64,000 nt of DNA from Formosa agariphila KMM 3901 (GTDB lineage Bacteria; Bacteroidota; Bacteroidia; Flavobacteriales; Flavobacteriaceae): positions 1,027,351-1,091,350 of the forward strand of contig NZ_HG315671.1 in NCBI RefSeq assembly GCF_000723205.1, read 5' to 3'. Shown here piece after piece: positions 44,512-63,443 of this stretch. Position 1 is the stretch's first letter; every line of letters starts with the position of its first letter. The translations under genes and the position numbers were made by a program. The notes under the pieces are model-generated. The model saw only the letters and a program-made list of their open reading frames with translations. It had not been told where the DNA came from and made no database searches.

Positions 44512-44595
44512 GGAGAGGTGCCAGAGTGGTAATGGAGCAGATTGCTAATCTGTCGACGGGTAACTGTCGCCAGGGTTCGAGTCCCTGTCTCTCCG
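44512..44595 (+). tRNA. tRNA-Ser (anticodon GCT)
   Basis: 84-nt class II tRNA. The acceptor stem GGAGAGG/TCTCTCC ends in a G-U pair and the discriminator is G. The anticodon loop TTGCTAA gives GCT, the variable arm is long, and the T loop is TTCGAGT. CCA is not encoded. Confidence 0.96.
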
Positions 44596-44646
44596 CAATT
44601 AATCTTTAATATAATATCGGGAATTAAAGATTTTAACAATACACCT

Positions 44647-44721
44647 CGGGGTGTAGCGTAGCCCGGTTATCGCGCCACGTTTGGGACGTGGAGGCCGCAG
44701 GTTCGAATCCTGCCACCCCGA
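44647..44721 (+). tRNA. tRNA-Pro (anticodon TGG)
   Basis: 75 nt. Acceptor stem CGGGGTG/CACCCCG, anticodon stem CCACG/CGTGG with loop TTTGGGA giving TGG, T loop TTCGAAT, discriminator A. A decayed integrase follows 230 bases downstream, so its 3' end is a likely old integration site. Confidence 0.96.
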
Positions 44722-44746
44722 CAATAGTCAATTGTAAATTGATTCA

Positions 44747-44781
44747 AAACCTTGTAAATCGTATGATTTACAAGGTTTTAT
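44747..44781 (+). terminator. Terminator after the tRNA pair
   Basis: 14-bp perfect stem (44747-44760 with 44765-44778), GTAT loop, then T-rich sequence. Confidence 0.82.
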
Positions 44782-44820
44782 TGTTTTAGGACATTTATTT
44801 AAATTGATATCATATCAATC

Positions 44821-44876
44821 TAATCGGTTCACAATTCGGTTCACAGTTTTTAAATCTTAAAAATGTAAACCGATTA
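44821..44876. other. Repeat cluster beside tRNA-Pro, possible attachment-site remnant
   Basis: TCGGTTCACA occurs twice, 12 bases apart (44824-44833 and 44836-44845). TAATCGGTT (44821-44829) is also repeated inverted as AACCGATTA (44868-44876). It lies between tRNA-Pro and the integrase remnant, as the recombination sites of tRNA-targeted elements do. That role is inference. Confidence 0.4.
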
Positions 44877-44949
44877 ACTTTAAAAAACGTGTATAGTAAT
44901 AGTTGATTTGACTTTCGTCTTGAACATGTTTAACATTAAAACAACCACT

Positions 44950-45399
44950 ATGCAAACACAATCCACACTCAGTATTTTGTTCTAGATTACTGCTTCCAGA
45001 GCAAGGAATAATTTTGTATCTATTTACACTAGAATTACAGTAAATGTGAAACGCGGTGATATCAGTTTAAATAGCGAAGACTTTCCTCAACGTTTTTTAA
45101 GATTTTATTAAGTAACTTATAATAGTCTTGGCGTGGTTTCTTTTGCCATTGGAAAATGCTTTATAGATGCTCAGGCTATTAAATCACGGGTTTAGGTCAA
45201 GATTTACAGGAGTATTCTTTACTCACTTTAATTAACTATCATACTATTCAAATTAGTAGGGCATTCACTTATGGTATGTTTATAAACTATTACACTACTC
45301 AAAAATATATTAAGTTATTCCTTGCAAAGCAGAAGGATCAGGATATGAATTTATCCCAAGTAACATTTAAATTTTTAACTAATCTTTTTTCTATTGCTT
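44950..45399 (+). pseudogene. Decayed tyrosine recombinase (integrase), N-terminal part
   Basis: Reading across stops and frames recovers the Bacteroidota site-specific integrase pattern. From ATG 44950: 'MQTQSTLSILF', stop, then 'IYTRITVNVKRGDISLNSE' (arm-type DNA-binding domain). Then comes 'DAQAIKSR', a frame change, and 'GQDLQEYSLLTLINYH', followed by 'TYGMFINYYTTQKYIKLFL' (SAM-like core-binding domain), ending at a stop at 45397-45399. At least three disruptions are present, and the catalytic R-H-R-Y domain is missing altogether. The position just past tRNA-Pro is the classic integration site. It marks an old mobile element that has lost mobility. 45400-45614 shows nothing recognisable. 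Confidence 0.8.
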
Positions 45400-45614
45400 A
45401 AATTTTAAGCAACTCTTTTAGTAAACACAACCGAAATTCCATTCCTATAAAAATAGGTTTAGTCTAAAAACAGGATACAATATCTTCCTTAATTTTTAAG
45501 GTTAATATAATTCTCGATAGAGTAAACCAACTCGCGCTTTCATTTATAATTTTATAGTCTAACAATGTAAAAGAAACTCCTGTAGTATTCTGAATACAAT
45601 AAAATTAAAATGAT

Positions 45615-46268
45615 ATGGCAGAAATTAAAATAGAAAAGAAAAAGCCAATATGGCCTTGGATTTTAGGATTATTAGTTGTTTTAGGAATAATATTATTCCT
45701 GTTTTATGCGACTAATAATAACGACGATTATATGGATGATACTAATACAAATCAGCCAGTAATGACCGATACGATTACCGATAATAGTAATGCGACTTAT
45801 AATAATGCACCGTCTAGCAACACTACAACTGAATATAAACCCAGCTCAACTTACTTGGTGAATGTACAGAAGTCCTTAAATGATTCTATGAAACTGGGAA
45901 CAGATTCTATATACACGGCAAAGGCCTTTTACAATTTAGCCAATGCCTCTGCTTCTAAAGCAGTAGAAATGAACTTGTATAGTTCTCCAGCTTTAAGCAG
46001 TTTAGAATCAGATTTAAATCAATTTAAGTCGGCTCAAATGGGGCAAGAAGATTTCAGCAAAATAGATTTAAAAACGCTAAGTTCTGAGATTACCGCTGTT
46101 ATTTCTGAAATTCAGAATAAAAATGCTCCAAATTTAGACAAGGAAGTTTCTAATTTAAAGACCCTTTCTAATGAATTAAATTCTTCTACAGACTGGACAA
46201 AGCAACAGAAAAACATTCAAGATTATCTTAATACATCTTATGAAATCTTGACAACTATTAATTATTAA
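45615..46268 (+). CDS. Membrane-anchored protein of unknown function
   Basis: 217 residues. A short basic N-terminus ('KIEKKKPIWPW') and one membrane helix (about 13-29) are followed by an Asn/Asp/Thr-rich low-complexity linker (about 30-75) and an all-helical, probably coiled-coil domain (about 78-217). There are no cysteines and no catalytic motif. I do not recognise the family. It lies 10 bases before a PRC-barrel gene, so the two are likely co-transcribed and may act together at the envelope under stress. This is inferred from adjacency only. Confidence 0.65.
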   Translation: MAEIKIEKKKPIWPWILGLLVVLGIILFLFYATNNNDDYMDDTNTNQPVMTDTITDNSNATYNNAPSSNTTTEYKPSSTYLVNVQKSLNDSMKLGTDSIYTAKAFYNLANASASKAVEMNLYSSPALSSLESDLNQFKSAQMGQEDFSKIDLKTLSSEITAVISEIQNKNAPNLDKEVSNLKTLSNELNSSTDWTKQQKNIQDYLNTSYEILTTINY

Positions 46269-46278
46269 ATCTTACAAA

Positions 46279-46977
46279 ATGAACACAAACGAAAAGCACT
46301 TATACGATTTAGACGAACTTTCTGATTATAAAATTTCTGAAGGCTATGCCGATATTAGAGGTTGGGATGTAAAAGACATAGATAACCGAGTAATTGGAAA
46401 AGTAGATAATTTACTAGTTAATAAAGAAGCACAGCGCGTCGTTTACATTGACGTAGAGGTAGACAAATCTATAATCGACGCAAGTCATGATCCATATAGT
46501 ACAGACAGCAACCGAGAGGTTAGGGAATTTATTAATAAAGATGGTGAAAATCATATTATTATTCCCATAGGTTTGTTAGATATCAATTCCGATTTAAAAC
46601 ACGTTTATACCCACACTGTAAACTACAGAACGTTTTCTGAAACTAAGCGTTATAGAAAAGGTGACAATGTAGATCGCGCTTACGAAGTACAAGTATTAGA
46701 TTCTTATAAACGTGATATCGCGCTTCAAAACCTTCAGGATGCAGTTAAAACTGAAAGAACAGAAACTTTTGAAGAAGAACGTATAAGAGAACTGGTGCGT
46801 GACGAAATAAGAAAATTTCATAACATTGGCACCTCCTATTTCTCTAAAGTTGAAACAGATGAAACGGATTTACCATCGAAAACTCATAAAAATAACCCGT
46901 ATGACGAGGAAAATTTTTACAACAGACATGAGTTCGAAAACAACCCTTTTAAAAGTAATCAGGGGTCTAGAAGATAA
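46279..46977 (+). CDS. PRC-barrel domain protein
   Basis: 232 residues. A PRC-barrel domain covers about 12-75, with 'YADIRGWDVKDIDNRVIGKV' and 'RVVYIDVEVD'. A second strand-rich part with 'NHIIIPIGLLDIN' (about 92-104) may complete another barrel half. The C-terminus is charged and disordered-looking ('RTETFEEERIRELVRDEIRK', then Asn-rich). It is cytoplasmic by sequence. PRC-barrel proteins of this size occur in stress and photosynthesis-related contexts across bacteria, with mostly unknown roles. A strong terminator follows, so the operon probably ends here. Confidence 0.82.
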   Translation: MNTNEKHLYDLDELSDYKISEGYADIRGWDVKDIDNRVIGKVDNLLVNKEAQRVVYIDVEVDKSIIDASHDPYSTDSNREVREFINKDGENHIIIPIGLLDINSDLKHVYTHTVNYRTFSETKRYRKGDNVDRAYEVQVLDSYKRDIALQNLQDAVKTERTETFEEERIRELVRDEIRKFHNIGTSYFSKVETDETDLPSKTHKNNPYDEENFYNRHEFENNPFKSNQGSRR

Positions 46978-46983
46978 TTCTAA

Positions 46984-47027
46984 AATAAGGATTATTCCGT
47001 TATGGGATAATCCTTATTATTTTTTTT
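46984..47027 (+). terminator. Terminator after the PRC-barrel gene
   Basis: 12-bp stem (46984-46995 with 47007-47018), 11-base loop, then a T run. Confidence 0.83.
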
Positions 47028-47081
47028 AAAATTAGTTATTCCAATAAATTATTATGATTATTTACTAACCTCCAACCTCTT

Positions 47082-48308
47082 ATGCCATCCTATTTTATAA
47101 TATTATTAATTATTGGTTTAACCACACTTTTAGCTAGTTTTTCACCCATAGTTCTAAAGTACTTTAAGATTAGTTACACCATACCTTTTCTTGTTTTAGG
47201 TGGCTTATTGTATTATTTAAAAGCGCCATTACCTTGGCCCGATCCGATTTGGGATATTGATTCAACCTTAAAGTTTTCTGAAATGGTTGTAATTATTAGT
47301 ATAATGGTAGCAGGGTTAAAAATAGGTTTAAACTATACGTGGAAAGAATGGCTGAACCCATTACGATTATTAGGTATTACGATGCCTCTTTTCATGATTT
47401 TTGTATTCCTATATTCATATTTTATTTTAGACTTTTCTGGAGCACTTGCATTGCTATTAGCAGCGGTTTTATCGCCGACAGATCCAGCATTGGCTTCCGA
47501 AATTCAACTTAATGAAAAACAATCCGATGTGTCTAAAAGAAATACTGGGGTAGAATATAATTTAACTGCAGAAGCAGGCTTAAATGATGGTTTGGCATTT
47601 CCGTTTGTTTATTTGGCTATTTTATGGTCTAAAAAAGATAATTTAAACAGCGAAGTTTGGACAACTTGGTTAAGTTATCATGTGTTGTATAAAATTGTAG
47701 TTGGGGTTGTAGTCGGTATACTTATCGGATTTCTATATAGTTATTTTACCACTAAACTGACTAAAAAAAGAGAAAGCAAAATTCATCAAGCCTTTGTCGC
47801 CATTTCGCTAACATTAGTGTCCTATGGCTTAGCTGAGGTTATGAGCTCTTATGGTTTTATAAGTGTATTTTTTACAGGCCTTTTTGCACATTATCATGCG
47901 CATATAAATAGTGAAAGAAATAATTACGAACCCAGTTTAGAATTCATTACCAATGTTGAAAAATTTCTAATCATTTTTTGGATGGTCTTTTTTGGAGGAT
48001 CTATAATGGGGGGTATCTTAAATTTCCTCGATCTTAAATTAGTACTATTTTGTTTATGTTTAGTTTTAGTAGCAAGACCTGTATTAGGTTATATTTCACT
48101 AACACATTCTGGTTTAGATTTAAAGAAAAAATTAGCCATATCCTTTTTCGGAATTAGAGGCATAGGCTCTGTTTTTTATTTAACCTATGCCATTAAAAAT
48201 GGTGAATTTGAGAATACCGACCAGCTATTTTCTATTATAGCCTTAGTCATTTTAATTTCAATTATTCTGCATGGTTTAACTGTTAAAAGATCTATTTCTA
48301 AAATTTAA
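47082..48308 (+). CDS. Na+/H+ antiporter, CPA1 (NhaP-like) family
   Basis: 408 residues with about twelve predicted membrane helices. Family motifs are 'LLAAVLSPTDPALASEIQ', containing the ion-binding Asp, 'NLTAEAGLNDGLAFPFVYL' (Asn-Asp pair region), and the late 'FFGIRGIGSVFYLTYA' with the conserved Arg. It exchanges sodium (or potassium) for protons at the inner membrane for pH and salt balance. There is no cytoplasmic regulatory tail. It stands alone after a terminator. Confidence 0.92.
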   Translation: MPSYFIILLIIGLTTLLASFSPIVLKYFKISYTIPFLVLGGLLYYLKAPLPWPDPIWDIDSTLKFSEMVVIISIMVAGLKIGLNYTWKEWLNPLRLLGITMPLFMIFVFLYSYFILDFSGALALLLAAVLSPTDPALASEIQLNEKQSDVSKRNTGVEYNLTAEAGLNDGLAFPFVYLAILWSKKDNLNSEVWTTWLSYHVLYKIVVGVVVGILIGFLYSYFTTKLTKKRESKIHQAFVAISLTLVSYGLAEVMSSYGFISVFFTGLFAHYHAHINSERNNYEPSLEFITNVEKFLIIFWMVFFGGSIMGGILNFLDLKLVLFCLCLVLVARPVLGYISLTHSGLDLKKKLAISFFGIRGIGSVFYLTYAIKNGEFENTDQLFSIIALVILISIILHGLTVKRSISKI

Positions 48309-48377
48309 AAATGATACCCATGTTAATTGAATAGCATGAGTTCAAATATCTTTTTTAGAAATAAATCGTAAAAACCA

Positions 48378-49739
48378 TTACACAAAGGCACTGTAACCTG
48401 TTATCGCCCTTCCAACTATTAGTGTATTTATTTCTTTGGTACCTTCATAAGAATATATAGCTTCTGCATCGGCTACAAAGCGCGCCACATCATATTCCAA
48501 TAATATTCCATTACCGCCCATCACTTCTCGCGCACGACTTACTACATCTCGAGTTCGCATAGAACAAAACACTTTTGCAAGCGATGCATGCTCGTCTGTT
48601 AAAAGTCCTTGATCTTGTAATTCTGAAAGACGATATACCATCGCTTTCATTGCAGTTAAGTTTGCTAACATTTCCACCAAATGATTTTGAATCAGCTGAA
48701 ATTTAGCAATAGGTTTCCCAAATTGTTCCCGTTTCTTGGTATATTTTAATGCACTTTCATAAGCACCTCTGGCACAACCTAAAGCTTGCCAAGCTACGCC
48801 TGCTCTAGTCATTCTTAACACTTTTGCTGTATCTCGAAATGAATTTGCTTTTTGTAACCGATCGGATTCGAGCACTTTACAATCTGTAATTGTAATTAAG
48901 GCATTTTGCACCGTTCTTAAGGCCATTTTATCTTCAATCTTCTCCGCTTTATAACCTGGATTTCCTTTTCTAACTAAAAAGCCTTTCGCCTGATTACTAT
49001 CTACATCTCTTGCCCAGATTATAATAACATCGGCAAAAGTGGCATTTCCAATCCATTTCTTTTGTCCGTTTAAAATCCATTCATCACCCACTTTCTTACA
49101 TGTGGTTTCCATACCACCCGCAACGCCACTTCCTACATTAGGTTCTGTTAAAGCAAAAGCGCCAATGCTTTCCATTTTTTGCATTTTTGGTAACCACTCT
49201 TGTTTTTGTTCTTCACTTCCGCATAGGTAAATAGATCCCATTGCCAATCCGCTATGAACCCCAAAAAAAGTAGATATAGACACATCGACTCGAGAAATTT
49301 CTTCAGCGATAATACCTTCCATAACGAATGATAAATTAGGACAGCCATAGCCTACATAGGCCACACCTGTAATATTTAGTTCGGCTAATTTTGGGATAAT
49401 TTCCATGGGAAACTCTGCGCGCTTCCAATAGTCGTTTGCAATAGGTTCGACCTCGGTCTCCATGAAATTACGCACTTTCATCTGAATTTCTCGCTGTTCC
49501 TGAGTCAGGTTTAAATCATAATCGTAGAAATCGCCATCTATAGGAGGCAATTGACGTTGTCCTTTTTTGGCTTTTTCGGTGAGTAGTTTAGTTAATCCCT
49601 TAAGCTGAGTATCGTCCAATTCCCCAACTGATTTCATAATTTTTGGTAAGTCTATTTTCTCTGAAATCTCATTTAATTCAGCAAAGTCTACTTGCTTCAT
49701 TAAGTGTGTAATTTGTTTTATTTTTTTAAAAAATTCCAT
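48378..49739 (-). CDS. Acyl-CoA dehydrogenase family protein (GCDH/ACX4-like clade)
   Basis: 453 residues. A 70-residue N-terminal extension of charged helix precedes the usual acyl-CoA dehydrogenase domains: N-terminal helices (about 75-185), a beta middle ('GAFALTEPNVGSG', 'WILNGQKKWIGNA') and C-terminal helices. The catalytic Glu432 lies in 'YSYEGTKEINTLIVGRAITG', the arrangement of the glutaryl-CoA dehydrogenase / acyl-CoA oxidase 4 branch. It oxidises an acyl-CoA at C2-C3 with FAD. The true substrate is uncertain. It is an isolated gene, with no electron-transfer flavoprotein or hydratase nearby. Confidence 0.9.
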   Translation of the reverse strand: MEFFKKIKQITHLMKQVDFAELNEISEKIDLPKIMKSVGELDDTQLKGLTKLLTEKAKKGQRQLPPIDGDFYDYDLNLTQEQREIQMKVRNFMETEVEPIANDYWKRAEFPMEIIPKLAELNITGVAYVGYGCPNLSFVMEGIIAEEISRVDVSISTFFGVHSGLAMGSIYLCGSEEQKQEWLPKMQKMESIGAFALTEPNVGSGVAGGMETTCKKVGDEWILNGQKKWIGNATFADVIIIWARDVDSNQAKGFLVRKGNPGYKAEKIEDKMALRTVQNALITITDCKVLESDRLQKANSFRDTAKVLRMTRAGVAWQALGCARGAYESALKYTKKREQFGKPIAKFQLIQNHLVEMLANLTAMKAMVYRLSELQDQGLLTDEHASLAKVFCSMRTRDVVSRAREVMGGNGILLEYDVARFVADAEAIYSYEGTKEINTLIVGRAITGYSAFV

Positions 49740-50067
49740 CCTTTTGTTTTTAATTCACAAATGCATCTGACATGGACACTTGTAAAATTCCACAATTAAA
49801 GTACTAAAAAGCAACCACATTTGCTAATATGATAAAATTTCACGTAAATTATTATCAAATAGATAATTTTAATCCCGCTTCAGCTAACTCAAACACTTAC
49901 AGTAAGTTACATTATTTCATTTCCATTTAGTAGTGAGACTTTGCACTTTAAACGTCTGTAATTTTATAGTTTTATTATGATTTTTAGCGTCTAAGTCTAT
50001 TGGAATGCAGCACATAAATCAAATAATTTAAATGTAAATTTATGATTTAAGTAATTACGCTATAAAG
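49740..50067. other. Non-coding interval between divergent genes
   Basis: 328 AT-rich bases between the acyl-CoA dehydrogenase (minus) and AI-2E (plus) starts. No gene, RNA or strong promoter match is seen. Confidence 0.5.
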
Positions 50068-51102
50068 ATGAAAGAAAACAAACCTCAATCTACTTCAAAA
50101 AACAATCCGTCTTTTCAAAAAAAAGTATGGATAGTCGTTGGAATACTTGCTTTTTCAATAATTACCATATTACTTTTAAAAGCTACATTTAGAGTTTTTT
50201 TACTAATATTAGCTGGTGCACTTATCGCTATATTTTTTAGAGGATTGAGTAGTTTTATTCAAAAAAAGACCAAATGGAAGGAAGGAATATGTGTCGCTAT
50301 TTCCATTATAAGTACCTTTTTAATAGTCATAGGATTATTCTGGTTGATTGGTGCAAAGGTACAAGATCAAATGGCTGAACTCGTAGAAACCTTACCTAAG
50401 ACCGTTGAAAATGCAAAGGCGAAATTAAATGAAAGTTCGATAGGTAGAAATATTGTAGACAATTTCTCTTCTGTAGACTCGATTGAGAAAGCACAAGGTT
50501 TTGCTGGGCAATTCTTCCAATCTACATTCGGATTTTTTGGCGATCTTTATGTTGTTTTATTCATTGGAATTTTCTTTACCATATCTCCTAAAATCTATAT
50601 TAATGGCTTAGTACAACTCATACCTATTAAGGGGCAAGAAGCTGGTAAGCAGGTCCTAAATAATATAAGCAATCAGTTACTTAACTGGTTAAAAGGAACC
50701 TTCTTCTCTATGTTTGTTGTTTTTGTTTTAACGGCAATAGGTTTGGCTATTATTGGGATCCCGCTTTGGCTTGTTCTAGCTCTTCTAGCTGGTTTAATTA
50801 GTTTTATTCCAAATTTTGGACCTTTAATAGCATTAATCCCAGCGGTATTAATTGGACTTTTACAGAGTCCTGAAACGGCGCTTTTAGTCGTTGGACTTTA
50901 TATACTAATTCAGTTTATTGAAAGTAATTTTATTACAACACTTGTTCAGAAAAAATTACTAGACCTGCCTCCAGCGCTTATAATTATCGCACAGCTTATT
51001 ATGGGAACACTAACAGGGATATGGGGATTGGTTTTAGCTACTCCAATAATTGTAATCCTAATTGTATTAGTGCAAGATTTATATATAAAAAACAGAGAGT
51101 AA
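50068..51102 (+). CDS. AI-2E family transporter (PerM type)
   Basis: 344 residues with about eight membrane helices: an early pair near 20-60, the family's amphipathic middle (about 95-150), and a C-terminal cluster with 'LALLAGLISFIPNFGPLIALIPAV' split as 'LAGLISFIPNFGPLIA' and 'LPPALIIIAQLIMGTLTGIWG'. Members include the AI-2 exporter TqsA and Na+/H+ antiporter-like proteins in halophiles. The substrate here is unknown. The opening 'MKENKPQSTSKNNPSFQKK' is a soluble cytoplasmic tail. It is monocistronic, followed by a long non-coding stretch. Confidence 0.9.
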   Translation: MKENKPQSTSKNNPSFQKKVWIVVGILAFSIITILLLKATFRVFLLILAGALIAIFFRGLSSFIQKKTKWKEGICVAISIISTFLIVIGLFWLIGAKVQDQMAELVETLPKTVENAKAKLNESSIGRNIVDNFSSVDSIEKAQGFAGQFFQSTFGFFGDLYVVLFIGIFFTISPKIYINGLVQLIPIKGQEAGKQVLNNISNQLLNWLKGTFFSMFVVFVLTAIGLAIIGIPLWLVLALLAGLISFIPNFGPLIALIPAVLIGLLQSPETALLVVGLYILIQFIESNFITTLVQKKLLDLPPALIIIAQLIMGTLTGIWGLVLATPIIVILIVLVQDLYIKNRE

Positions 51103-52010
51103 ATTAGAGTACACTTAAAACACTGCCAATAAGATTATATTTATAAAGAGTTAAAGCTTTTACAAGCTGAAACACAGAATATGAATTTCGAATTAGTTTC
51201 TCATCACTAAAAAATAAAATCTGCACTCTAGCACATATGTTTTATGCTTACTTATACTTTTACTAGTGAAGCTGATTTTACTAGATATTGGTATGTTTAA
51301 ATAAGAATTTAAACCTTTATATAAAAATTTAGGGTATCTTTAAATTAAACTTAGAATGTTTAAAAATAGGTAATATTAAATGAGGTGATTCCTGTAACAG
51401 CTATGCAGGTGGTGGTAAAATAGAAAGTATAATGTATGATTAATGCGTTGGCCCTCTAACTTTAAACGTTTCACTTCTTATTGGTCCTGAAAAAATTTCC
51501 AATAAAATAAACGAGCCAAAATTATCAGACATTCATGTAGTAAGATCCTCTAAAAAGGTTTTGTAGTACTGAAACGATACTTTGCCTACAACGAGCTATG
51601 ATGCTCCTGTACGGATTAATTTAACGGTACCAAAATCGTTTTCTTTTTTCCGATAGTAAAGTTATGAGATTACATCGTATTATTAAAATAGAAATCCATC
51701 TTAGGATATTCTAGTGACGGTTTTTGCACCACATTCTTATTTAGGAATGAGTTGTTTTACTGTTTGCATATAGTCAGGAGACACCTTTGTGTTGTCCATA
51801 ATAATTGTATACAAATAATTAATTTCACATTATTTCACTTTAGCCTGAAGTGCATTTATTAATTCAAAAAAATTGATTGGGTTGAGGTTTTGAAAGTAAA
51901 AAAAAAACTATAAACAATTGATTACGATAAAGATATTTGCGTTTGCAATCTTGATTTTTGCTGATTAATTTTAAATTCATCGACTAAAACAAAACTGAAA
52001 ATTAGGGGGT
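51103..52010. other. 908-base non-coding interval with broken reading frames
   Basis: No intact gene. The middle part still reads as protein-like sequence interrupted by stops (see the relic at 51444). No repeats, tRNA or hairpin of note. Confidence 0.55.
51444..51656 (+). pseudogene. Possible gene relic, unidentified
   Basis: One frame is open for about 40 codons ('VGPLTLNVSLLIGPEKI...'), broken by two closely spaced stops near 51565, then open again in the same frame ('NDTLPTTSYDAPVRINLTVP') to a stop at 51654. The amino-acid make-up looks protein-like, unlike random AT-rich sequence. The family is not recognised. Confidence 0.35.
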
Positions 52011-52445
52011 ATGACCATATTAAAATTCATATTAATTAATACAGTAGCTGTAGCACTTATGACTGGATTTTCATATGTAATCTCTCAGGCTTATAATATT
52101 AATTTCAGTGAACCCAAGCGTTTAAAACAATTAGTAAATCGTGCACGTATCATAAGAAAATCTGATTTTGGAATATGGGTGGGATGGTGTTTACACTTTG
52201 GTATTGGCTTAGTGTTTTTGTTAGTGTATTTTCTGTTTAGAAACATTTTTCCCAACGGTCCTGAGTTAGTATATGCTTTAATTTTTGGTTTTTTAGCAGG
52301 ACTACTTGGTGTAGTAGGGTGGAGACTTATGTTTGCTTTACACGATAATCCGCCACAATTTCCTAAATTCCCATTTTATGTTCAGCTTGTTGGAGCTCAC
52401 ATTGTATTTAGTGCAACTGTGGCAGGGATGTTGTTTTTATTTTAA
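52011..52445 (+). CDS. Small integral membrane protein of unknown function
   Basis: 144 residues with four predicted membrane helices (about 3-25, 55-78, 86-106 and 122-143). A short basic loop between helices 1 and 2 ('EPKRLKQLVNRARIIRKSD') should face the cytoplasm. No cysteines in a motif, no catalytic residues. I do not recognise the family. It sits alone between two long gene-poor stretches, so context gives no hint. Confidence 0.7.
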   Translation: MTILKFILINTVAVALMTGFSYVISQAYNINFSEPKRLKQLVNRARIIRKSDFGIWVGWCLHFGIGLVFLLVYFLFRNIFPNGPELVYALIFGFLAGLLGVVGWRLMFALHDNPPQFPKFPFYVQLVGAHIVFSATVAGMLFLF

Positions 52446-52617
52446 GCAAAATACTTCAAAGATAAACCCTATCAATGAGTGTTTTTGAGAACTAATACAA
52501 TTCAAATAATTTAGTATCCTTGGAAATCATCTGACACATTAAAACCATTTTAATTTTGTCATGGCGCTTAAAATTATAAGTATCATACTAAAACATTTTT
52601 TGAAATAGATCATATAA

Positions 52618-53004
52618 ATCTGTCCGACTGTACACTATATAATTATCATAAAAAGAAAAGAAGCAATAACTAATGGGACTTATTATTTCAATCCTGATAG
52701 CGGAAGAGATAATCTAAATATAGATGTATTTGCCTTACCATTTAAAGTCATTTCAAAAAAAGAAATAGTATTAAATGATTATGAGATAAGTCGTTTAAAA
52801 GGGGGTGATTATAATTGGATTAAGGATAACAGCTGGAAAATAGTAACAAATGAAACACGTAATTTTAAAAACCTGTATTTTTTAGAGAGGGAAGAAAATA
52901 ACAATTTCGTTTTATATAAAGTAGAGACTGTTATCTATACATTTAAAAGTAGAAAAAGCAGCTTCCTTAGTTATAAGTTGGAAATTATAGTGTGTTTTTG
53001 TTAA
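52618..53004 (+). pseudogene. Open frame without start codon, likely gene fragment
   Basis: The frame is open from a stop at 52615-52617 to TAA at 53002, but it has no ATG or TTG, and its only GTG is near the end. The translation looks like genuine protein, for example 'NGTYYFNPDSGRDNLNIDVF' and 'YNWIKDNSWKIVTNE'. An ATG-led frame at 52561, in the same phase, stops at 52606. The simplest reading is a small gene whose 5' part has mutated. The family is unknown. Confidence 0.4.
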
Positions 53005-53268
53005 TGTAAAGAGTAGTAGTTAACTGGAGTGTTTACGAGACGCTTTTAATACAGTGTTAAGTGCTTATTCATCCATACCTTTTATCAAAATCAAAAGTCT
53101 ATTCAGTTTAGGTTTTATCCAAACTCGTTTAAGAGTAACAAGCAGTAATCCATTTTCATTAATAATTGCTTTAAAGAGTTTTCTATAGTATTAAGGCTAA
53201 TTTCTCATTTGTAACTGCCAAATTCTAATTAAGGTAGAATTTATGCCGTAAAGGAGTTAGACTTGTTT

Positions 53269-53412
53269 ATGAAGTATAAAATAAAATCCCATGCAACGAC
53301 CAACCTCAACGCCAAAGAACTCGAAAACCGTTATGGTTCCCGTGTACGTTCAAGATTGCGAAGTATGTTTAATCTTATAGCATTCGATACTAGTTCAAAG
53401 GATAAACGATAG
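53269..53412 (+). CDS. 47-residue ORF, uncertain
   Basis: ATG 53269 to TAG 53410. The product is basic, 'MKYKIKSHATTNLNAKELEN' then 'RYGSRVRSRLRSMF'. Its first half is clearly richer in G+C than the surrounding DNA. It may be a fragment of a larger imported gene, perhaps a DNA-binding or transposase-type protein, but nothing proves it is expressed. Confidence 0.25.
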   Translation: MKYKIKSHATTNLNAKELENRYGSRVRSRLRSMFNLIAFDTSSKDKR

Positions 53413-53682
53413 CAAATAAAATATTATTCTTTGAACAAGTATAAAGTCTTCAGTTTGTAAATCTTATCAATTTATATATGTAAAATATTAAGGAGAGTAT
53501 TATTAATCTTATTTGAATGTAAAACCTTTGAGTGAAATATAAATAATAATCAACCTATAAGAAATATGATGTTTAGAGGAGAAAGTATTAATATTAAAAT
53601 TTAATCTTTATAGAGGTGTTTCGTCCCTTTTCAATATTTGTCATTTAAATTATGACGATTTAAGTTTGATTTTTTTAATAAT

Positions 53683-54366
53683 TTGATAAAAAAGAATATT
53701 CAAAATTATAAATCGAGTTTTTATTTAGAAATTATTATATCATCTAATGTAGATAGGTGTATTTCTAATAGGTTTTATCTAGTTTTGTTAACAAATAATT
53801 CTTCTGAAAATTTGCAAGAAAATAACGTTTTAAATAATATAGGCAATAAAGCTGTGTTTAAGTCTACATTTAATAAGTTTTATAAGGAGTTGGTTATATA
53901 TGCCCATAACTTTTTGTATGACCAGCAAGCAAGTGAGGACTTAGTACAAGACGTTTATATTTATTTATGGGAAAATTCAGAAAAAATAGAAATTAAAACA
54001 TCAATACGTGCTTACCTATATAAAGCGGTTCAAAATCGATGTTTAAATTATCTAAAATCTTTAAAAGTTGAAGTTGATTTAGATACCATTAATTTAAATA
54101 CTTATATCACGACCGATTATGATTTAAATATTTTAGATAATCAAGATAAATTAATTATTTATAATCATGTGTTAAAAGTAGTTGATCAATTTCCTGAAAG
54201 AATGAAACAAATTTTTAAGTTGAAATATCTTCAAGGTTATAAGTATTCAGAAATTGCAGAGGAGTTAGATGTTTCTATTAATTCAGTTAAAACTCAACTA
54301 CAGAGAGCAAAATTAAAATTGAATGAGGCCATGGTTGTAATTCTTCTTCTGATAAGTAATTCGTAA
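53683..54366 (+). CDS. ECF-type RNA polymerase sigma factor (FecI-like)
   Basis: Region 2 is seen in 'VIYAHNFLYDQQASEDLVQDVYIYLW', given here as 'DQQASEDLVQDVYIYLW', and region 4 in 'PERMKQIFKLKYLQGYKYSEI' and 'VSINSVKTQLQRAKLKLNE'. The frame is open from a TTG at 53683 (227 residues). Similarity to the family begins later, and an in-frame TTG at 53812 would give 184 residues, the usual size. There is no ATG in the first part, so the start is unsure. It directs RNA polymerase to the adjacent SusC/SusD operon when released by the FecR-type anti-sigma encoded next. Confidence 0.88.
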   Translation: MIKKNIQNYKSSFYLEIIISSNVDRCISNRFYLVLLTNNSSENLQENNVLNNIGNKAVFKSTFNKFYKELVIYAHNFLYDQQASEDLVQDVYIYLWENSEKIEIKTSIRAYLYKAVQNRCLNYLKSLKVEVDLDTINLNTYITTDYDLNILDNQDKLIIYNHVLKVVDQFPERMKQIFKLKYLQGYKYSEIAEELDVSINSVKTQLQRAKLKLNEAMVVILLLISNS

Positions 54367-54518
54367 TGTTTTTCTTTTTTTGTTAGAGTATGTTTGCTTT
54401 TTTTGTCTGAACTCAGAAAAAAATTCATGTTTTTGTCACCCTTTTTAAATTTTCTGTTGTCATATTAAAAAAAGGTTACTTTTCTGTTAAGAGCAAAACC
54501 TTGATTTCTTTATAAGAT

Positions 54519-55649
54519 ATGACATTCAAACTTATTATTAAAAAAATAAAAAAGACATTAAACCAACAAGAATCTGAAATATTTGATGCTTGGTTTAATG
54601 AGTCTCCAGAACATCGTGCATATTTCAATAAGGTTAAAGTGAATTTTAACTCTGAAATCGATAATTTTAATATGAATGAGGCATGGAGTAAGATTCAAAA
54701 TAGTACACAAGAGCCAAGATTTAAAGTAAATTGGAAATATATGGTTGCGGCTATTTTAATTGGAATATTAGTTACTGCTAATTTTATAGTAAAACAGAAC
54801 GATAGTGAAAATTTCATTCAAGAATCTTCAAAAATTTCAGAAATAAGTATTGGTTCTAATAAGGCAATTTTAACATTGAATGATGGTTCAGAACTAGAAT
54901 TAAAAGAGGGTAATAGCCAAGCATTAACAAATGCCTCCTCCAATGGTAAAGAATTAATTTATAAGTGTTCGAAAAAACATAGAAGTGAAGTTATTTATAA
55001 TTATTTAACTATCCCAAGAGGTGGGCAGTATGTTGTAAAATTAGCTGACAACACCAAAGTATGGTTGAATTCTGAAACTAAAATCAAATACCCCGTAGAA
55101 TTTGAGGAGGGACAAGTTCGTCAAGTTGAACTTATTTACGGTGAAGCTTATTTTGAAGTTACATCAAGTGCAGTTAATAACGGAAGTTCTTTTAGAGTTT
55201 TAACTAAAGGGCAAGAAATTGAGGTTTTAGGCACTGAATTCAATGTAAGTGCATATCAAAATGAAATTTTAATATATACAACATTAGTTGAAGGAAGTGT
55301 GTCGATTGTTACAAATGAAAAGGAAATAAAACTAAAGCCAGGTGAACAATCTATTTTAGATACAAGCGATAATTCTATTCAAGTTCAATCTACTGAAACA
55401 TATTTTGTTACAGCTTGGAAAAAGGGGTTGTTTGCATTTAAAAATAAAACACTCTTAGAAATTGTGCCTATTTTATCTAGATGGTATGATGTGGAAATTA
55501 CTATTGATGACGAAAATTTAGAATCTGTTGGGTTTAAAGGAGTCTTAAGTAAAAATCAGTCTATTGAACAAATATTAGAATTAATAAAAAAAACAAACTT
55601 TTTAAAATCTTATGAAATAAAAGGAAATAAAATAGAAATAAAAAAATAA
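54519..55649 (+). CDS. FecR-type anti-sigma factor (FecR + DUF4974)
   Basis: 376 residues. The N-terminal cytoplasmic part (about 1-70, 'NQQESEIFDAWFNESPEHRAY') binds the sigma factor. One membrane helix lies at about 74-91. The periplasmic FecR domain (about 160-270) includes 'IPRGGQYVVKLADNTKVWLN' and 'RQVELIYGEAYFEVT'. DUF4974 at about 300-375 ('FAFKNKTLLEIVPILSRWYD') contacts the STN domain of the SusC-type receptor. It transmits the 'substrate bound' signal from outer membrane to sigma factor. It lies 150 bases after the sigma gene and 96 before susC. Confidence 0.93.
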   Translation: MTFKLIIKKIKKTLNQQESEIFDAWFNESPEHRAYFNKVKVNFNSEIDNFNMNEAWSKIQNSTQEPRFKVNWKYMVAAILIGILVTANFIVKQNDSENFIQESSKISEISIGSNKAILTLNDGSELELKEGNSQALTNASSNGKELIYKCSKKHRSEVIYNYLTIPRGGQYVVKLADNTKVWLNSETKIKYPVEFEEGQVRQVELIYGEAYFEVTSSAVNNGSSFRVLTKGQEIEVLGTEFNVSAYQNEILIYTTLVEGSVSIVTNEKEIKLKPGEQSILDTSDNSIQVQSTETYFVTAWKKGLFAFKNKTLLEIVPILSRWYDVEITIDDENLESVGFKGVLSKNQSIEQILELIKKTNFLKSYEIKGNKIEIKK

Positions 55650-55745
55650 GGGAGTTAAAGTTCACACCGTCCAAAGTATTAACCTTTTCTCCCTTTTGAG
55701 AATTAATAATCAACAAATGTTAAATTAAAAAATCATTACAAATTT

Positions 55746-58700
55746 ATGGAAAATAAACTAATAGCACCCTTTCTTAGTGTAAGGAAAAAACTTTTTAGAT
55801 TAATGGTTAAAACTTTTATATTCTTCTTTTGCACATCTTTATTTGCATTAGCACCAAATAGAATTTCATCTCAAAATGTTAATATAAAAATTGAAGAAGA
55901 TGTTACAGTGTCTATTGATGGGTTGTTCGACTTAATAATGGAACAAACCGATTTTATATTTGTATATCAAGTCAATCTGTTCAAAGATGTTCCGGATATT
56001 AAATTAAAAAAAGGAAATCCTAAGGTCGAGGAAATACTTGAAAATCATATCACTTCTAATAATTTGGTATTCTCTATTAATAGCCAAAACACAATTATAA
56101 TTGATAAAGTTCAAAATAGAGATCAAAACTTATTAAGCATTAAAGGTACAGTCAAAGATGAAAATGGAGTTCCGGCTGCCGGAGTAAACGTACTTGAAAA
56201 AGGTACACTCAATGGAGTTTACACCGACTTTGATGGGAATTTTAAAATTTCTGTAAATGAAGGAAGCGTTTTAGTTTTTAGCTATGTTGGTATGAAAGCT
56301 CAGGAAATAAAAGCAACTGATGATACTTATATGAATGTAATACTTAAGATGGACTCAGAATCTTTAGATGAAGTTGTTTTAGTTGGGTATGGAAGTCAAA
56401 AGAAAAGAGATTTAACTGGGTCTGTGGCTTCGGTTGATGTTCAAGAATTACAGAAAACTAACCCTATAAACTTCGATAACGCTTTAGTGGGTAGGGTTTC
56501 TGGTGTCTATACTGTGCCTTCTTCTGGAGCACCAGGTTCTGAAGCTTCTATTAGAATTCGTGGTATAACGTCCATCTTTGGTAATAACGAGCCATTATAT
56601 GTTATAGATGGTCTACCTATTGAGGTGGGGCAGGGATTAGGGAATTCTTTTTATAACGAAAATTCTTATTCTACAATTTCACCTCTAAGTTCAATTAATC
56701 CACAAGATATAGAAAGTATTGATATATTAAAAGATGCATCAGCTACAGCGATATATGGTTCACGAGGGGCCAATGGTGTTGTAATTGTAACTACTAAAAA
56801 AGGGAGTTATTCTTCAGTGCCTAGTATCAGTTTAAGTGTAAATACAAGTATTTCTAATTTTACTAATCAGTATGATATGCTTAATTCTGAAAAATTTCAT
56901 GATGTGATAGAACAAGCTTATAGTAATACTGGAACAACGTTACCGGCCGAAAGTTCTTTATATCCTTATGGAAAGGATGTTGAGACTAATTGGCAGAAAG
57001 AAACTGACCAAGCTGCAATTAATGCAAATTATTATTTAAATGCTAATGGTGGCTCATTGGATGGAGGTTCACTTTATTCTCTTTCTGCAGGAGTTACAGA
57101 TCAAGCAGGAGCTTTAATAGGAACTAATTTTAGAAGAAATACATTAAGAACAAAATTAGAAACAAAACTATTTGAAAGATTAAGAGTAGGAACTAATTTT
57201 AATTATAATGATTCTAATAATGAAGGAAAAGGTACTTTAACATATTATCAAGCAGCTAAATATAGACCAGATATCCCTATTTATGATGACAATGGCGATT
57301 TTGCTTATGATGCTCCAAGTTATTCTTTTCAAGCTAACCCATATGCCAAAACAACATATTCTAACGATATAAATAGCAAGAGTTTAATTTTATCGTTATT
57401 CGGAGAATTTGAAATTACTAAAAACTTATTATTTAAAACAACATATTCTTATACCACTAACGACAATGATACCTTTAGATATACACCAAGTTATGATCCT
57501 TTAGAACAGGCTTATGGTAGAAAAGGAACATTAAATCAAAATGAAAATAAATTTTCTTCAAGGGTATTAGATAATGTATTGAGTTTTAATAAAAACTATA
57601 ATAAACATGGTGTTAATGCTATATTAGGTGCTTCCTATACACAAAACAAAAGTGAGTTTTTAAGTATTAGTGCTACCGATTTTCCTGATGATGAAAATTT
57701 AATTACTCCTGGAGCAGCTTCTAGTGTTTCACTAACAAGCGGAGGAACTATTAGTGGTTTAGCATCTTATTTCTTTAGGTCTAACTATAATTATAATGAT
57801 AAGTATTATTTAACTTTTACAGGAAGAGCCGATAAGTCTACTAAATTTGGTCCAGAAAATAGATGGGGATATTTTCCATCTGGTGCAGTAGCTTGGAGGA
57901 TTTCTAAAGAATCCTTTTTAGAAGATTCTAATTTTATAAATGATTTAAAACTTAGAGCATCTTATGGAAAAACGGGTTCTGCAAACTTTTCAGATTTCCA
58001 ATATGATACATTTTTTGCAGCTGGTAGTTTTTATAATAATAATAATGGGGTAATTTCTAATACAATTCCAAATCCTAATATTAAATGGGAAACGACAAAT
58101 CAGTTAGATTTATCAATAGATTACTCTTTATGGGATAGAAGGATTAATGGAACAGTAGGTTATTTTAATAAGAAAACCTTCGATCAAATTTTATTAAGAG
58201 ATGTTATTTTAGAAACTGGAGGAAGTAGCCAATTCTCTAATATTGGAGATTTTTTAAATGAAGGTTTTGAGTTTCAGTTGAGTGTTGATGTAATTTCTAC
58301 AAACAAAGTACAATGGACTACAGATTTTAATATTTCTACAATTAATAGTAAAGTTCTTAAATTGAATGGAGGATATTATAATAACTTAATTGAAGGTGAG
58401 TCTATTAGCTATTTTTCTGGATATAAAATAGATGGAATTTTTCAAAATCAAAATGAAATAGATGCTTTAAATAGTAATTCGCCTAATAGTATTTACCAAT
58501 CATCAAATACATCACCAGGAGATTTTAAATTCGTAGATGTTAATAATGATGGTTATATTGGTGAAGACGATTCTACTATTATAGGTGACGCCTCACCAGA
58601 TTTTTTTGGAGGATGGAATAACATAGTTAGATTCGGTAACTTCGAAATATCTGCATTGTTTAATTTTAGCGTTGGTAATTATTTATACAATACCAATAAA

Positions 58701-59100
58701 AAAGATCTCACAATTTTTACAAATTACACTTCCAATTATTCTACAGAAATTTTAGATGCATGGAGTCCTACTAATACCGACTCAGGTATTCCGCGTTTAG
58801 CATATGGAGATCCGAATGATAATAATAGAGATTCAGATTTTTTTTATAGAAGATGCTTCATTTTTTAGACTTAAAAATTTAAATATTACATATAATTTAA
58901 AGCCTGAATTACTTAAAAAAATATTTATACAACGCGCTAGTTTTTCACTTACAGCTAGTAATATTTTTGTTATTACATCATACAGTGGTTTAGATCCAGA
59001 GGTGAATTATAATGGGACTAGTAATTTTAATCAAGGTTACGATAATGCTGCTTATCCTCCAACTAGAACAATCACTTTAGGATTAAACTTAAACTTATAA
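55746..59100 (+). pseudogene. SusC/RagA-type TonB-dependent receptor with STN domain, frameshifted near the 3' end
   Basis: Order: signal segment (about 18-36); STN domain (about 45-118) that signals to FecR; carboxypeptidase-regulatory-like domain (about 130-205); plug domain opening 'LDEVVLVGYGSQKKRDLTGSV', given here as 'EVVLVGYGSQKKRDLTG'; then a large beta barrel. The first frame stops at 58866-58868 after a run of eight T (58838-58845). With seven T the reading continues 'SDFFIEDASFFRLKNLNITY' in the frame 58804-59100 and ends 'TRTITLGLNLNL', the expected C-terminal barrel strand, giving 1117 residues. As read, the protein lacks its last strands and would not assemble. It could be a real mutation, slippage-based switching, or a base-calling error. 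It would import a large or complex substrate using TonB energy, with the SusD partner encoded 4 bases downstream. Confidence 0.9.
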
Positions 59101-59104
59101 TATT

Positions 59105-60475
59105 ATGAAAATTTTAAAATTTACACTTATATACATATTCTTATTTACGTCTTTTAATTTATTTACATCTTGTGAGGTTATTGATGTTACAGATGTTCAA
59201 CCTGTTTATCAAGTCTCTGAAGAAAATGTTATCACTAATCTAGAACAAGCTCAGGCTGTATTATATGGTACTTATGGTATTCTTATAGATGGTTTAGAAT
59301 TTACTTCATATGCTCCTGGTTTAACTTCTTGTATGGGACTAACAATGAAGGTGGGGAGTAGAGGTCCGTCCTCATTCAATCAATTTGTAAATAATGAGGT
59401 TAACTCTAGTAATACTTATGTAGAATTAATATATACTAAAATGTATTTTCTTCTAAATAATGCAAATCATATAATTACTAAGACTCAGGAATTAGAAGGA
59501 GACTCTTCTGCTAAAAATGAAATTATTGCTGAAGCAAAAACTTTAAGAGCTTTAACTCATTTTTACTTGTTAAGATTATGGGGTCAATTCTATGATGAAA
59601 ATTCAAGTTATGGAATTGTATTGAAACAACAACCAATTAGTGATGCTGTTATCCAGGAACGATCAAGTGTATTAGATACTTATAATTTAATTCTAGAAGA
59701 CTTAGAATTTGCTATCGAGCATGGACCTGAATTTTCTAACACATTCTATACGTCTAATTTATTTGCTAAAGCTTTAAAAAGTAAAGTACTTCTTTATAAA
59801 AAAGATTATAGTAATGCGGCTCAATTAGCCTTAGAAGTTATCAATTCAGGAGAAAGAAATTTAGAAGATACTTATGCTGATATTTTTATAAAAAAAATAA
59901 GTAATACAAATGAGGTCTTATTCCAGACTCCTTTTGATAATGCTAATGATAGAAATAATAAAGCTTTCATATTTAGATCTTATTTTTCGTTGTCAGATAC
60001 TTATAAAGAATTTATGCAAGATGATTTACGATATGATGCAGCAATAGCATCTAATGGGAATAATAATAAATTCAATAATTCAACTTATAATGGAGAAACT
60101 TTAACTGCAGATACAGAATATTTTATGCGTCTAGATGAGGTGTATTTAATCTATGCAGAAGCGGTGCTAAGAGGTGATGATAATTTAGAGGAAGCATTAT
60201 CTGCTCTAAATAAAATTAGAGAAAGAAGTGGAAATGTTTTGTTTGAAATGACGACGAAAGAGTCCTTGCTTGATAAAATAAGAGAGGAAAAAATGTATGA
60301 ATTAGGAGCTGAGAGTGGTGAAGAATGGTTTGATTTAGTAAGATATCACATAGAGGGAGATATCAATATAAATGATTTTAAACCTTTAACATCCGACTCA
60401 AAACTTATTTTACCTCTACCTACACAGTCTATTCAATTATCAGAAGGTAAAATAGTTCAAAATCCAAATTACTAA
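59105..60475 (+). CDS. SusD/RagB family outer-membrane lipoprotein
   Basis: 456 residues, short for SusD. The lipobox ends at Cys23 ('FNLFTSC'). TPR-like helices follow: 'LRALTHFYLLRLWGQFYDEN' and 'SSVLDTYNLILEDLEFAIEH'. The C-terminal RagB region has 'RLDEVYLIYAEAVLRGD', 'ALNKIRERSG' and 'REEKMYELGAESGEEWFDLV'. It caps the SusC barrel outside the cell and captures the substrate. The stop overlaps the next start by one base (TAATG), so it is translationally coupled to the thioredoxin gene. Confidence 0.93.
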   Translation: MKILKFTLIYIFLFTSFNLFTSCEVIDVTDVQPVYQVSEENVITNLEQAQAVLYGTYGILIDGLEFTSYAPGLTSCMGLTMKVGSRGPSSFNQFVNNEVNSSNTYVELIYTKMYFLLNNANHIITKTQELEGDSSAKNEIIAEAKTLRALTHFYLLRLWGQFYDENSSYGIVLKQQPISDAVIQERSSVLDTYNLILEDLEFAIEHGPEFSNTFYTSNLFAKALKSKVLLYKKDYSNAAQLALEVINSGERNLEDTYADIFIKKISNTNEVLFQTPFDNANDRNNKAFIFRSYFSLSDTYKEFMQDDLRYDAAIASNGNNNKFNNSTYNGETLTADTEYFMRLDEVYLIYAEAVLRGDDNLEEALSALNKIRERSGNVLFEMTTKESLLDKIREEKMYELGAESGEEWFDLVRYHIEGDININDFKPLTSDSKLILPLPTQSIQLSEGKIVQNPNY

Positions 60476-61671
60476 TGAGAAATCTATTTGTTGTATTATT
60501 TTGCTTTCTATTAATTGCCTGTAAATCTGAGGGTAAACAGGAGCAGAAACAGAATCAGGAAATAATGTTTCATGAAGATTCATTTCAGAATATTTTGGCT
60601 TTAGCTAAAAAAGAAAATAAGTTAATTTTTATTGATTGTTATACAACTTGGTGTGCACCTTGTAAATGGATGGATAAATATGTGTTTATTAATAAAGATG
60701 TAGCTAGCTATTACAATAAAAATTTTATTAATGTAAAACTAGATATGGAAAAAGGAGAAGGGCTTAAACTAAGAGATACTTACGGTGTAAAGTCATTTCC
60801 AACATATTTGTATTTAAATGCAGAAGGAGAATTAGTTCATAAGTCTGGCTCTAAAATGAGTGTAGAACGATTTATTGAGGAAGGCCGAAATGCATTGAAC
60901 CCTAAAAAAGCTATAGGATTATTAGCTAAAAATTATGAAAAAGGTTTTTTAAACTTAGATGATAAAGTTCAATATGCTATTATGTTAAAAGGTGCTGATG
61001 GGGCTAAAAGTAAGAAAGTTTTAAATGAAATTTATTCTGAGGTTGATAGTAATTATATGCAGACTTATTCTGGTTGGAAAATAATTGAAGCTTTTACAGA
61101 TAATAATCAGTCAAATCTTTTTAAAACCCTAAATAACAATAAGAAACATTATACTGAAATGGCAGGAATAGAATCTGTAAATAAAATTTATGAAAGAGTT
61201 TTGTTAAATGATATTTATAGTAATCTTGAAGAAAAAGATAGCTTACTATTTTTTAGTAAGCTAGATTCTTTAAAAAATGTGTCTTTAAACTCTAGAACTG
61301 TCCCTATTCTACATTGTGACTACTATTTGCGAAATATGGATCCTGAAAATTTTATTAAAACATCTAACTATTATGTGGATAATGATTTAAAAAATGATCC
61401 AGAAACTATTGCTTTTATAGCGCGATCGGCAACAAGATATTCTCAACCTCTAAATCATAAGGTTTTGGAGCAAGCTTCAGTTCTAATTACGAAAGCTTAT
61501 AGAACAGAATCTCCTAGTTATGGTACAGTATCAACATATGCAGACATTCAAAATAAAATAGGAAATAAAGAAGAAGCTATACGTGCTGGAGAACTTGCAG
61601 TAAAAATGGCAGATACTATCAGTAGTAAAATAAAAAAAATAGCAGAGAAAAATTTGCAAGACATGCAATAA
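60475..61671 (+). CDS. Lipoprotein with N-terminal thioredoxin domain
   Basis: 398 residues. The lipobox Cys16 is in 'FLLIAC'. A thioredoxin-fold domain covers about 30-145, with redox motif 'TTWCAPCKWMD' (Cys60, Cys63) and cis-Pro 'VKSFPTYLYL'. The remaining 250 residues are helical and unrecognised, with TPR-like character near the end ('GNKEEAIRAGELAVKMA'). It probably acts in the periplasm or at the membrane face, reducing or isomerising disulfides in whatever the SusC/D pair imports. That link is inferred from the one-base overlap with susD. Confidence 0.85.
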   Translation: MRNLFVVLFCFLLIACKSEGKQEQKQNQEIMFHEDSFQNILALAKKENKLIFIDCYTTWCAPCKWMDKYVFINKDVASYYNKNFINVKLDMEKGEGLKLRDTYGVKSFPTYLYLNAEGELVHKSGSKMSVERFIEEGRNALNPKKAIGLLAKNYEKGFLNLDDKVQYAIMLKGADGAKSKKVLNEIYSEVDSNYMQTYSGWKIIEAFTDNNQSNLFKTLNNNKKHYTEMAGIESVNKIYERVLLNDIYSNLEEKDSLLFFSKLDSLKNVSLNSRTVPILHCDYYLRNMDPENFIKTSNYYVDNDLKNDPETIAFIARSATRYSQPLNHKVLEQASVLITKAYRTESPSYGTVSTYADIQNKIGNKEEAIRAGELAVKMADTISSKIKKIAEKNLQDMQ

Positions 61672-61709
61672 ATTGGAATGCTTAATAATAAATAAAATAA
61701 AAATATAAT

Positions 61710-63080: not shown

Positions 63081-63443
63081 AAAAATAATCTTGAATGTAA
63101 ATCATACTACATTTAAGTATTAAACTTTTTTTAATTTTTACTAAATAATTGTTTGAAAACACTTTTGAATTAGTCCATATTATTTAGTGAAAAAGGACTG
63201 TGTTTAACATGCAGTCCTTTAATTTCTTAAGATTAACTTAGGTAGATTCATTAACAATGTAAGTAGTGTTTTGGACATATGTTCCAAAAAGACATGCAAC
63301 TTATCCCCTTGTGCATTTAAAATCCTTATCGAATCTAATTCATGCAATTAAATTAATCTACAATAAATAGCACGATGAATATTCCAGCATAGTAAGATGA
63401 ATAAACTGTCCTATATCAGACAAATAATTTAAATATTTATTAA
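63081..63443. other. Non-coding interval closing the SusCD island
   Basis: 363 AT-rich bases. It holds the operon's hairpin terminator (63192-63220) and, presumably, the promoter of the DsbD-like gene. No reading frame of note. Confidence 0.5.
63192..63226 (+). terminator. Terminator of the sigma/SusCD/thioredoxin operon
   Basis: 9-bp perfect stem (63192-63200 with 63212-63220), 11-base loop, partly T-rich tail. Confidence 0.65.

Follow-up and report, generated by a model that had tools for sequence, protein, structure and literature searches.

What was left behind a tRNA-Pro gene of Formosa agariphila KMM 3901, how far does it extend, and did it ever move again after it had lost the means to do so? 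The stretch analysed here (the window; 64,000 bp, G000:C1:1027351-1091350, in a genome of a single 4,228,350-bp contig) had been interpreted in a preliminary description as bearing, at 44647-45399, the trace of an integrated element: repeats and a fragmentary tyrosine integrase without its catalytic part just past the tRNA, an old insertion, and accessory genes up to 53.6 kb as its possible cargo. Our analysis indicates that this feature is very probably the left end of a 20.75-kb island that a tyrosine integrase once placed in tRNA-Pro, at its 3' end. The range described carries the feature but holds the left end of the island only. The features are collected in Table 1.

Table 1. Features of the tRNA-Pro island and its surroundings, in window numbering.
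Feature	Position	Strand	Evidence or remark
tRNA-Ser	44512-44596		upstream neighbour of tRNA-Pro
tRNA-Pro (TGG), integration target, kept whole	44647-44722	+	ARAGORN
attL core, 16 bp, the tRNA-Pro 3' end	44707-44722	+	exact repeat
Genomic island, visible part	44707-64000	+	cores, unoccupied sites in G001 and G002, cargo absent behind tRNA-Pro of 11 relatives save for remote matches
Hairpin directly 3' of tRNA-Pro	44746-44779	+	15-bp arms, 100% complementary
Short direct and inverted repeats	44821-44876	+	repeat search, recurrence elsewhere in the genome
Integrase pseudogene (residues 1-45 and from 102; beyond about 176 missing)	44950-45391	+	blastx against 500 shuffles
Cargo block 1 with leader (217-aa protein, PRC-barrel, Na/H exchanger, acyl-CoA dehydrogenase on the - strand, AI-2E family transporter)	45481-51146	+	Pfam; 94% match to G004
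Relics and 144-aa ORF	51439-52800	+	fragments resembling other places of the same genome
Cargo block 2 (ECF sigma factor, FecR, SusC, SusD, two thioredoxin-fold proteins, DsbD)	53683-64000 (last gene, DsbD, ends at 65414)	+	Pfam, frames
attR core, 16 bp	65458-65473 (G000:C1:1092808-1092823)	+	exact repeat, past the window end

The borders were identified by the core. Its two copies are identical over 16 bp, lie on the same strand and are 20,751 bp apart, the right-hand one 1.46 kb beyond the window end; inside the window no second copy of the tRNA-Pro 3' end was found. Genome-wide, the 17-mer of the tRNA 3' end (at most 2 mismatches) occurred at four places, namely the two tRNA-Pro genes, 65458 in window numbering and 2584784, and a reversed control pattern at none. 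The sequence to the right of the 65458 core is the one found directly 3' of tRNA-Pro in the congeners G002 (97%) and G001 (90%). When the left and right flanks were joined across the junction, 426 of 469 positions were identical in G002 and 433 of 471 in G001, so that both genomes display the unoccupied site; it was seen in two of five congeners only, and the part shared to the right of the core is about 44 bp in both. Three genes taken from the right of attR were found behind tRNA-Pro in none of 11 relatives. Because of the second core and the joined flanks matching the unoccupied tRNA-Pro of two congeners, 44707-65473 is evidently an old site-specific insertion, the remnant of a mobile island of about 21 kb at tRNA-Pro. 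The locus has the hallmarks of a tRNA-integrated genomic island: both borders carry the tRNA 3' end as a direct repeat, relatives show the unoccupied site, and an integrase gene, here a pseudogene, stands at one border.

The left end retains several traces of the element. Immediately behind the tRNA stands a perfect inverted repeat with 15-bp arms (44746-44760 and 44765-44779), possibly a terminator brought by the element; judged by eye, the other integrase-side ends compared have a hairpin-like sequence in the corresponding position. The 12-bp repeats that follow, a direct pair at 44824 and 44836 (92% alike) and an inverted copy at 44821/44861 (88%), may be arm-type sites of the integrase. 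The left-end stretch 44700-44965 recurs at G000:C1:2584.5-2584.8 kb with 90-91% identity. No ORF of at least 50 aa was listed between the repeats behind tRNA-Pro and 45615. When 44723-45620 was compared by blastx, with stops kept, to the intact 411-aa integrase beside the other tRNA-Pro of the genome, two pieces were recognized, the first (residues 1-45) at 44950-45084 with 53% identity and 43.9 bits, the second (residues 102-176) starting at 45195 with 31% identity and 48.9 bits. Against the set of six integrases used in this comparison, 500 dinucleotide shuffles scored 27.3 bits at best, which rules out a chance similarity of the relic. Pfam gave PF13102 for the second piece at 19.9 bits, under the cut-off of 22.3, and no match for the first. 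Because tblastn searches from six integrases, at an E limit of 1, detected nothing beyond residue 204 in 44700-66500, we take 44950-45391 to be a tyrosine-integrase pseudogene whose catalytic half is absent. That the whole locus reflects chance, with no insertion at all, has a negligible probability: the sub-threshold Pfam score would speak for it, and it is already refuted by the shuffles, the exact core repeat, the unoccupied sites and the 94% identical cargo. The preliminary description was thus right about the left end, where repeats and a fragmentary integrase do lie just past tRNA-Pro, the translated comparison with Bacteroidota integrases gives a significant match and the catalytic part is gone; its reading as an old insertion is supported by the two cores, the unoccupied site and the integrase match.

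Between the cores 13 proteins are encoded (Pfam), two of which, of 217 and 144 aa, have no Pfam match. Behind the tRNA-Pro of 11 relatives (11.7-20 kb each), the 13 proteins were matched only remotely, never above 31% identity: SusC-like in three relatives, FecR- and sigma-like in one and AI-2E-like in two. The 217-aa protein had a match in 19 of 299 genomes of the family, its own included, a figure that says little about close relatives since the draw probably did not include G004 (no G004 match was listed). As for the earlier proposal that the following genes could be cargo, 45.5-51.1 kb matches, at 94% identity, a block standing behind a core in another species, which speaks for it, but the island runs to 65.47 kb and not to 53.6 kb.

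Intact relatives of the element were sought within and outside the genome. The second tRNA-Pro (tRNA-Pro-2) is followed by the intact 411-aa integrase, related to the relic, and by an island of 100.4 kb reaching to the core at 2584784, with a hybrid two-component regulator, SusC, SusD and a sulfatase among the proteins sampled. That core starts a further unit, whose left end is 90-91% identical to that of the window and which has SusC, SusD, a sulfatase and GH3 downstream. The polysaccharide-locus content of the tRNA-Pro-2 region and of unit B in G004 (see below) was read from 20 sampled proteins. A TraG of the Bac_Flav type beside the tRNA-Pro islands of this genome was ruled out, both TIGR03783 matches lying at 3.10 and 3.72 Mb.

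When named genomes were scanned with the 411-aa integrase, a search that reaches close relatives only, 10 loci with a related integrase were obtained (74-86% identity). tRNA-Pro stood directly in front of the integrase in eight of them (ARAGORN) and a core without tRNA in the other two; in six of the eight a second core followed on the same strand and contig after 28-85 kb, and two of these were examined inside. The ICE-like element of Olleya marilimosa (L200-L202, 44.0 kb) resembles the window island in its tRNA-Pro target, its core and an integrase of the family of the relic's closest intact relative. It differs by an intact integrase, TraG and MobB relaxase, all above the NCBIfam cut-offs (TraK, TraM and MobC below), and by a heavy-metal cargo (RND transporter, P-type ATPase). 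The Gelidibacter element (28.3 kb) has no TraG-like ORF of 800 aa, and its right-end 18 kb is that of Olleya at 97%. Five loci (L184, L185, L186, L187 and L189) from four genera, all Flavobacteriaceae, carried element DNA at least 99.93% identical, starting at the core. Among the records of Olleya, Arenibacter, Gelidibacter mesophilus and Aquimarina the identity was 99.93-100% over a fetched length of 4,499 bp, of which 4,321 bp also occurred in an uncultured Gelidibacter. The DNA before the tRNA aligned in two of ten record pairs only (74-80% over 221-977 bp). The spread of this tRNA-Pro element through four genera appears to be very recent, and heavy-metal genes are present in the two examined.

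Since four of the 11 relatives carry integrase sequence behind tRNA-Pro, some of it broken, relics like that of the window evidently recur at this site. The integrase is intact in G004, lies in two frames in G021 (L086) and is represented in G015 by a piece running off the fetched stretch. The fourth, G003 (L082), has a broken N-terminal relic (residues 1-81, at 2133-2376) and, 1.6 kb beyond it, a separate full-length integrase-like frame at 3881-5161.

Integrases of the relic's type occur in phages too, and this would suit a prophage that has decayed, with no kinship to conjugative or mobilizable elements, a reading that we regard as very improbable. Bacteroidota prophages can use tRNA-proline: in the part of the source available, those of Porphyromonas gingivalis (proposed Nixviridae; PMC10367356) have the same kind of target tRNA in the same phylum. 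Those are phages, whereas the island proteins include no structural or packaging family (PHROGs on 10 of 13, Pfam on 13); all PHROGs matches, with SusC, SusD and DsbD left out, were to transcription regulators or to families whose function is unknown. A search of phage DNA at an E limit of 1 gave 27 records and, among the matches listed (20), E values of about 0.9 and covers of 3-6%. The related living element of Olleya, moreover, has a MobB relaxase and TraG.

The congener G004 carries a tandem array of three units on one strand, with cores at 841668 (tRNA-Pro), 803907 (1 mismatch) and 745125; further cores lie elsewhere in that genome at 1539613 (within a match to tRNA) and 1358992. Unit A has an intact integrase, DUF5712, a TraG-type coupling protein, Cas1 and an HNH_4 protein of 1433 aa, in our reading Cas9-like. 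At L083 (G004:C1:823500-843499) a mobilizable-type element stands at tRNA-Pro with Cas1 and the Cas9-like protein between integrase and mobilisation genes. Unit B has an intact integrase, with SusC-like, SusD and sulfatase among the proteins sampled. The third unit, C, has a truncated integrase followed by the block shared with the window: 45560-51146 corresponds to G004:C1:738970-744572 at 94% identity, and the leader of the 217-aa gene (45481-45614) is 92.5% identical over 134 positions. No part of the island other than 45.2-51.1 kb is shared with G004. Similarity to the integrase ends near residue 176 in the window and near 191 in G004, and then the same leader of the 217-aa gene begins; on the simplest reading, the truncation would predate the exchange. 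Relic identity to G004 falls to 65-72% between 45311 and 45480, where a recombination joint is possible. The left ends differ, that of unit C resembling the end at tRNA-Pro-2 of the window genome (88% over 172 bp).

The backbone of the two genomes is far less alike than the block. Over 20 kb to the left of the tRNA, identity was mostly 73-78%, with one 1-kb piece at 83%, and the 823 bp ending with tRNA-Pro reached 87%. Four-fold sites were 82-88% identical in five shared block-1 genes; the HD gene next to the tRNA had 44% (66/151). With a 94% block and 82-88% of four-fold sites against a backbone of 73-78% and 44% in the HD gene, block 1 was thus exchanged after the lineages of the window and G004 had split, directly or via a third lineage. 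Because both copies lack the catalytic half of the integrase, it was probably an island without a working integrase that changed hosts. It is also conceivable, if unlikely, that ordinary homologous recombination or transformation brought block 1 into G004, the shared att site playing no part. No integrase is left in either copy, as this would have it, but the flanking backbone is too dissimilar to have shared the event, and the block in G004 lies again directly behind a core. Finding one and the same truncated unit in two species suggests that the death of its own integrase need not stop an island from travelling.

The right part of the island is less easily placed, and for 51.2-65.4 kb original cargo and later addition are both possible readings. 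An old tRNA-Pro element may have given attL, the integrase and block 1, and the ECF-FecR-SusC-SusD-DsbD block may have come later by recombination, replacing what had been the right end as far as 44 bp short of attR. We give this composite origin serious weight, if somewhat short of an even chance. G004 shares block 1 only, relics lie between blocks 1 and 2, and copies of dsbD 95-96% identical exist elsewhere in the genome. Arm sites before attR were likewise not found, the score of 21 being reached by 66 of 500 shuffles and so at chance level. Such repeats were above chance in the tRNA-Pro-2 island (3/500), G004 unit A (0/500) and Olleya (0/500), and at chance level in G004 unit B (84/500). 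On the other hand, block 2 lies within the cores, and no second border was found between the blocks. The missing right-hand arms would count against easy mobility of the window island.

The best reading of the feature is a decayed CIME-like island, a kind already known. Both att cores are kept, with right-hand arm sites not found, and no transfer or relaxase family occurs among the 13 island proteins (Pfam); the own integrase and relaxase of an IME are thus represented here by a broken integrase only. The closest intact relatives of the relic include ICE- and IME-like elements, and no intact sister of the window island was found. The integrase would have recombined a 16-bp core carried by the element with the identical 16 bp of tRNA-Pro, so that the tRNA stayed whole at attL and the second core became the right border, attR. 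The ancestor was probably related to the tRNA-Pro elements that are intact in the window genome, in G004 and in the named Flavobacteriaceae, and would have decayed to a unit that kept its borders and lost its integrase and transfer genes. Less certainly, a dead unit of this kind might go on moving with the help of a living element that inserts next to it at the common core; this would account for the third place that the truncated unit takes in the array of G004.

Tandem accretion of this type is known from the ICESt1-related elements of Streptococcus (PMC5704250). In the part of that source available, CIMEs have both att sites and no integration or transfer genes, as does the window unit, and stand in tandem with living elements of a common att site, as does the truncated unit in G004. 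It would follow from that description that a living element sharing the core could insert next to the dead unit, and that the two could leave together. Unlike these CIMEs, the window unit belongs to Bacteroidota, sits at tRNA-Pro and carries SusC/SusD cargo, no right-hand arms were found in it, and its mobilisation is putative. We tentatively propose, as an idea that may well prove wrong, that tRNA-Pro is a stacking site where Flavobacteriaceae accumulate and exchange islands, SusC/SusD and sulfatase loci among them, that living tandem elements carry along units with a dead integrase, and that the window unit is such a passenger, its host having changed after integrase loss. Polysaccharide utilization loci are exchanged between Bacteroidota species, according to the part of the source available (PMC13188876). 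Our search, from which subscription journals were mostly absent, found no literature on tRNA-Pro islands with such loci in Flavobacteria. With the core sequence, the integrase family and apparently intact elements at hand, a vehicle for polysaccharide loci becomes testable.

Some minor observations concern the cargo. The SusC gene (55746-58868) ends early and its usual C-terminal part continues downstream in another frame, so that it is either broken or misread near its end. The dsbD gene (63444-65414) has two further full-length copies in the genome (G000:C1:2104911-2106912 and 2966041-2967957, 95-96% identical) and a partial one (3116671-3117030, 94%), with the similarity confined to the gene. 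The stretch 51439-52466 resembles 552785-553941 of the same genome at 83-84%; the counterpart there is a 616-aa gene whose start is broken in the island, where the 144-aa gene is intact. Finally, 52602-52794 and L018 (65545-65852, just right of attR) match the two halves of a 500-bp stretch 7 kb further right (G000:C1:1100090-1100591) at 92% and 90%, the halves being consecutive there and reversed in order here.
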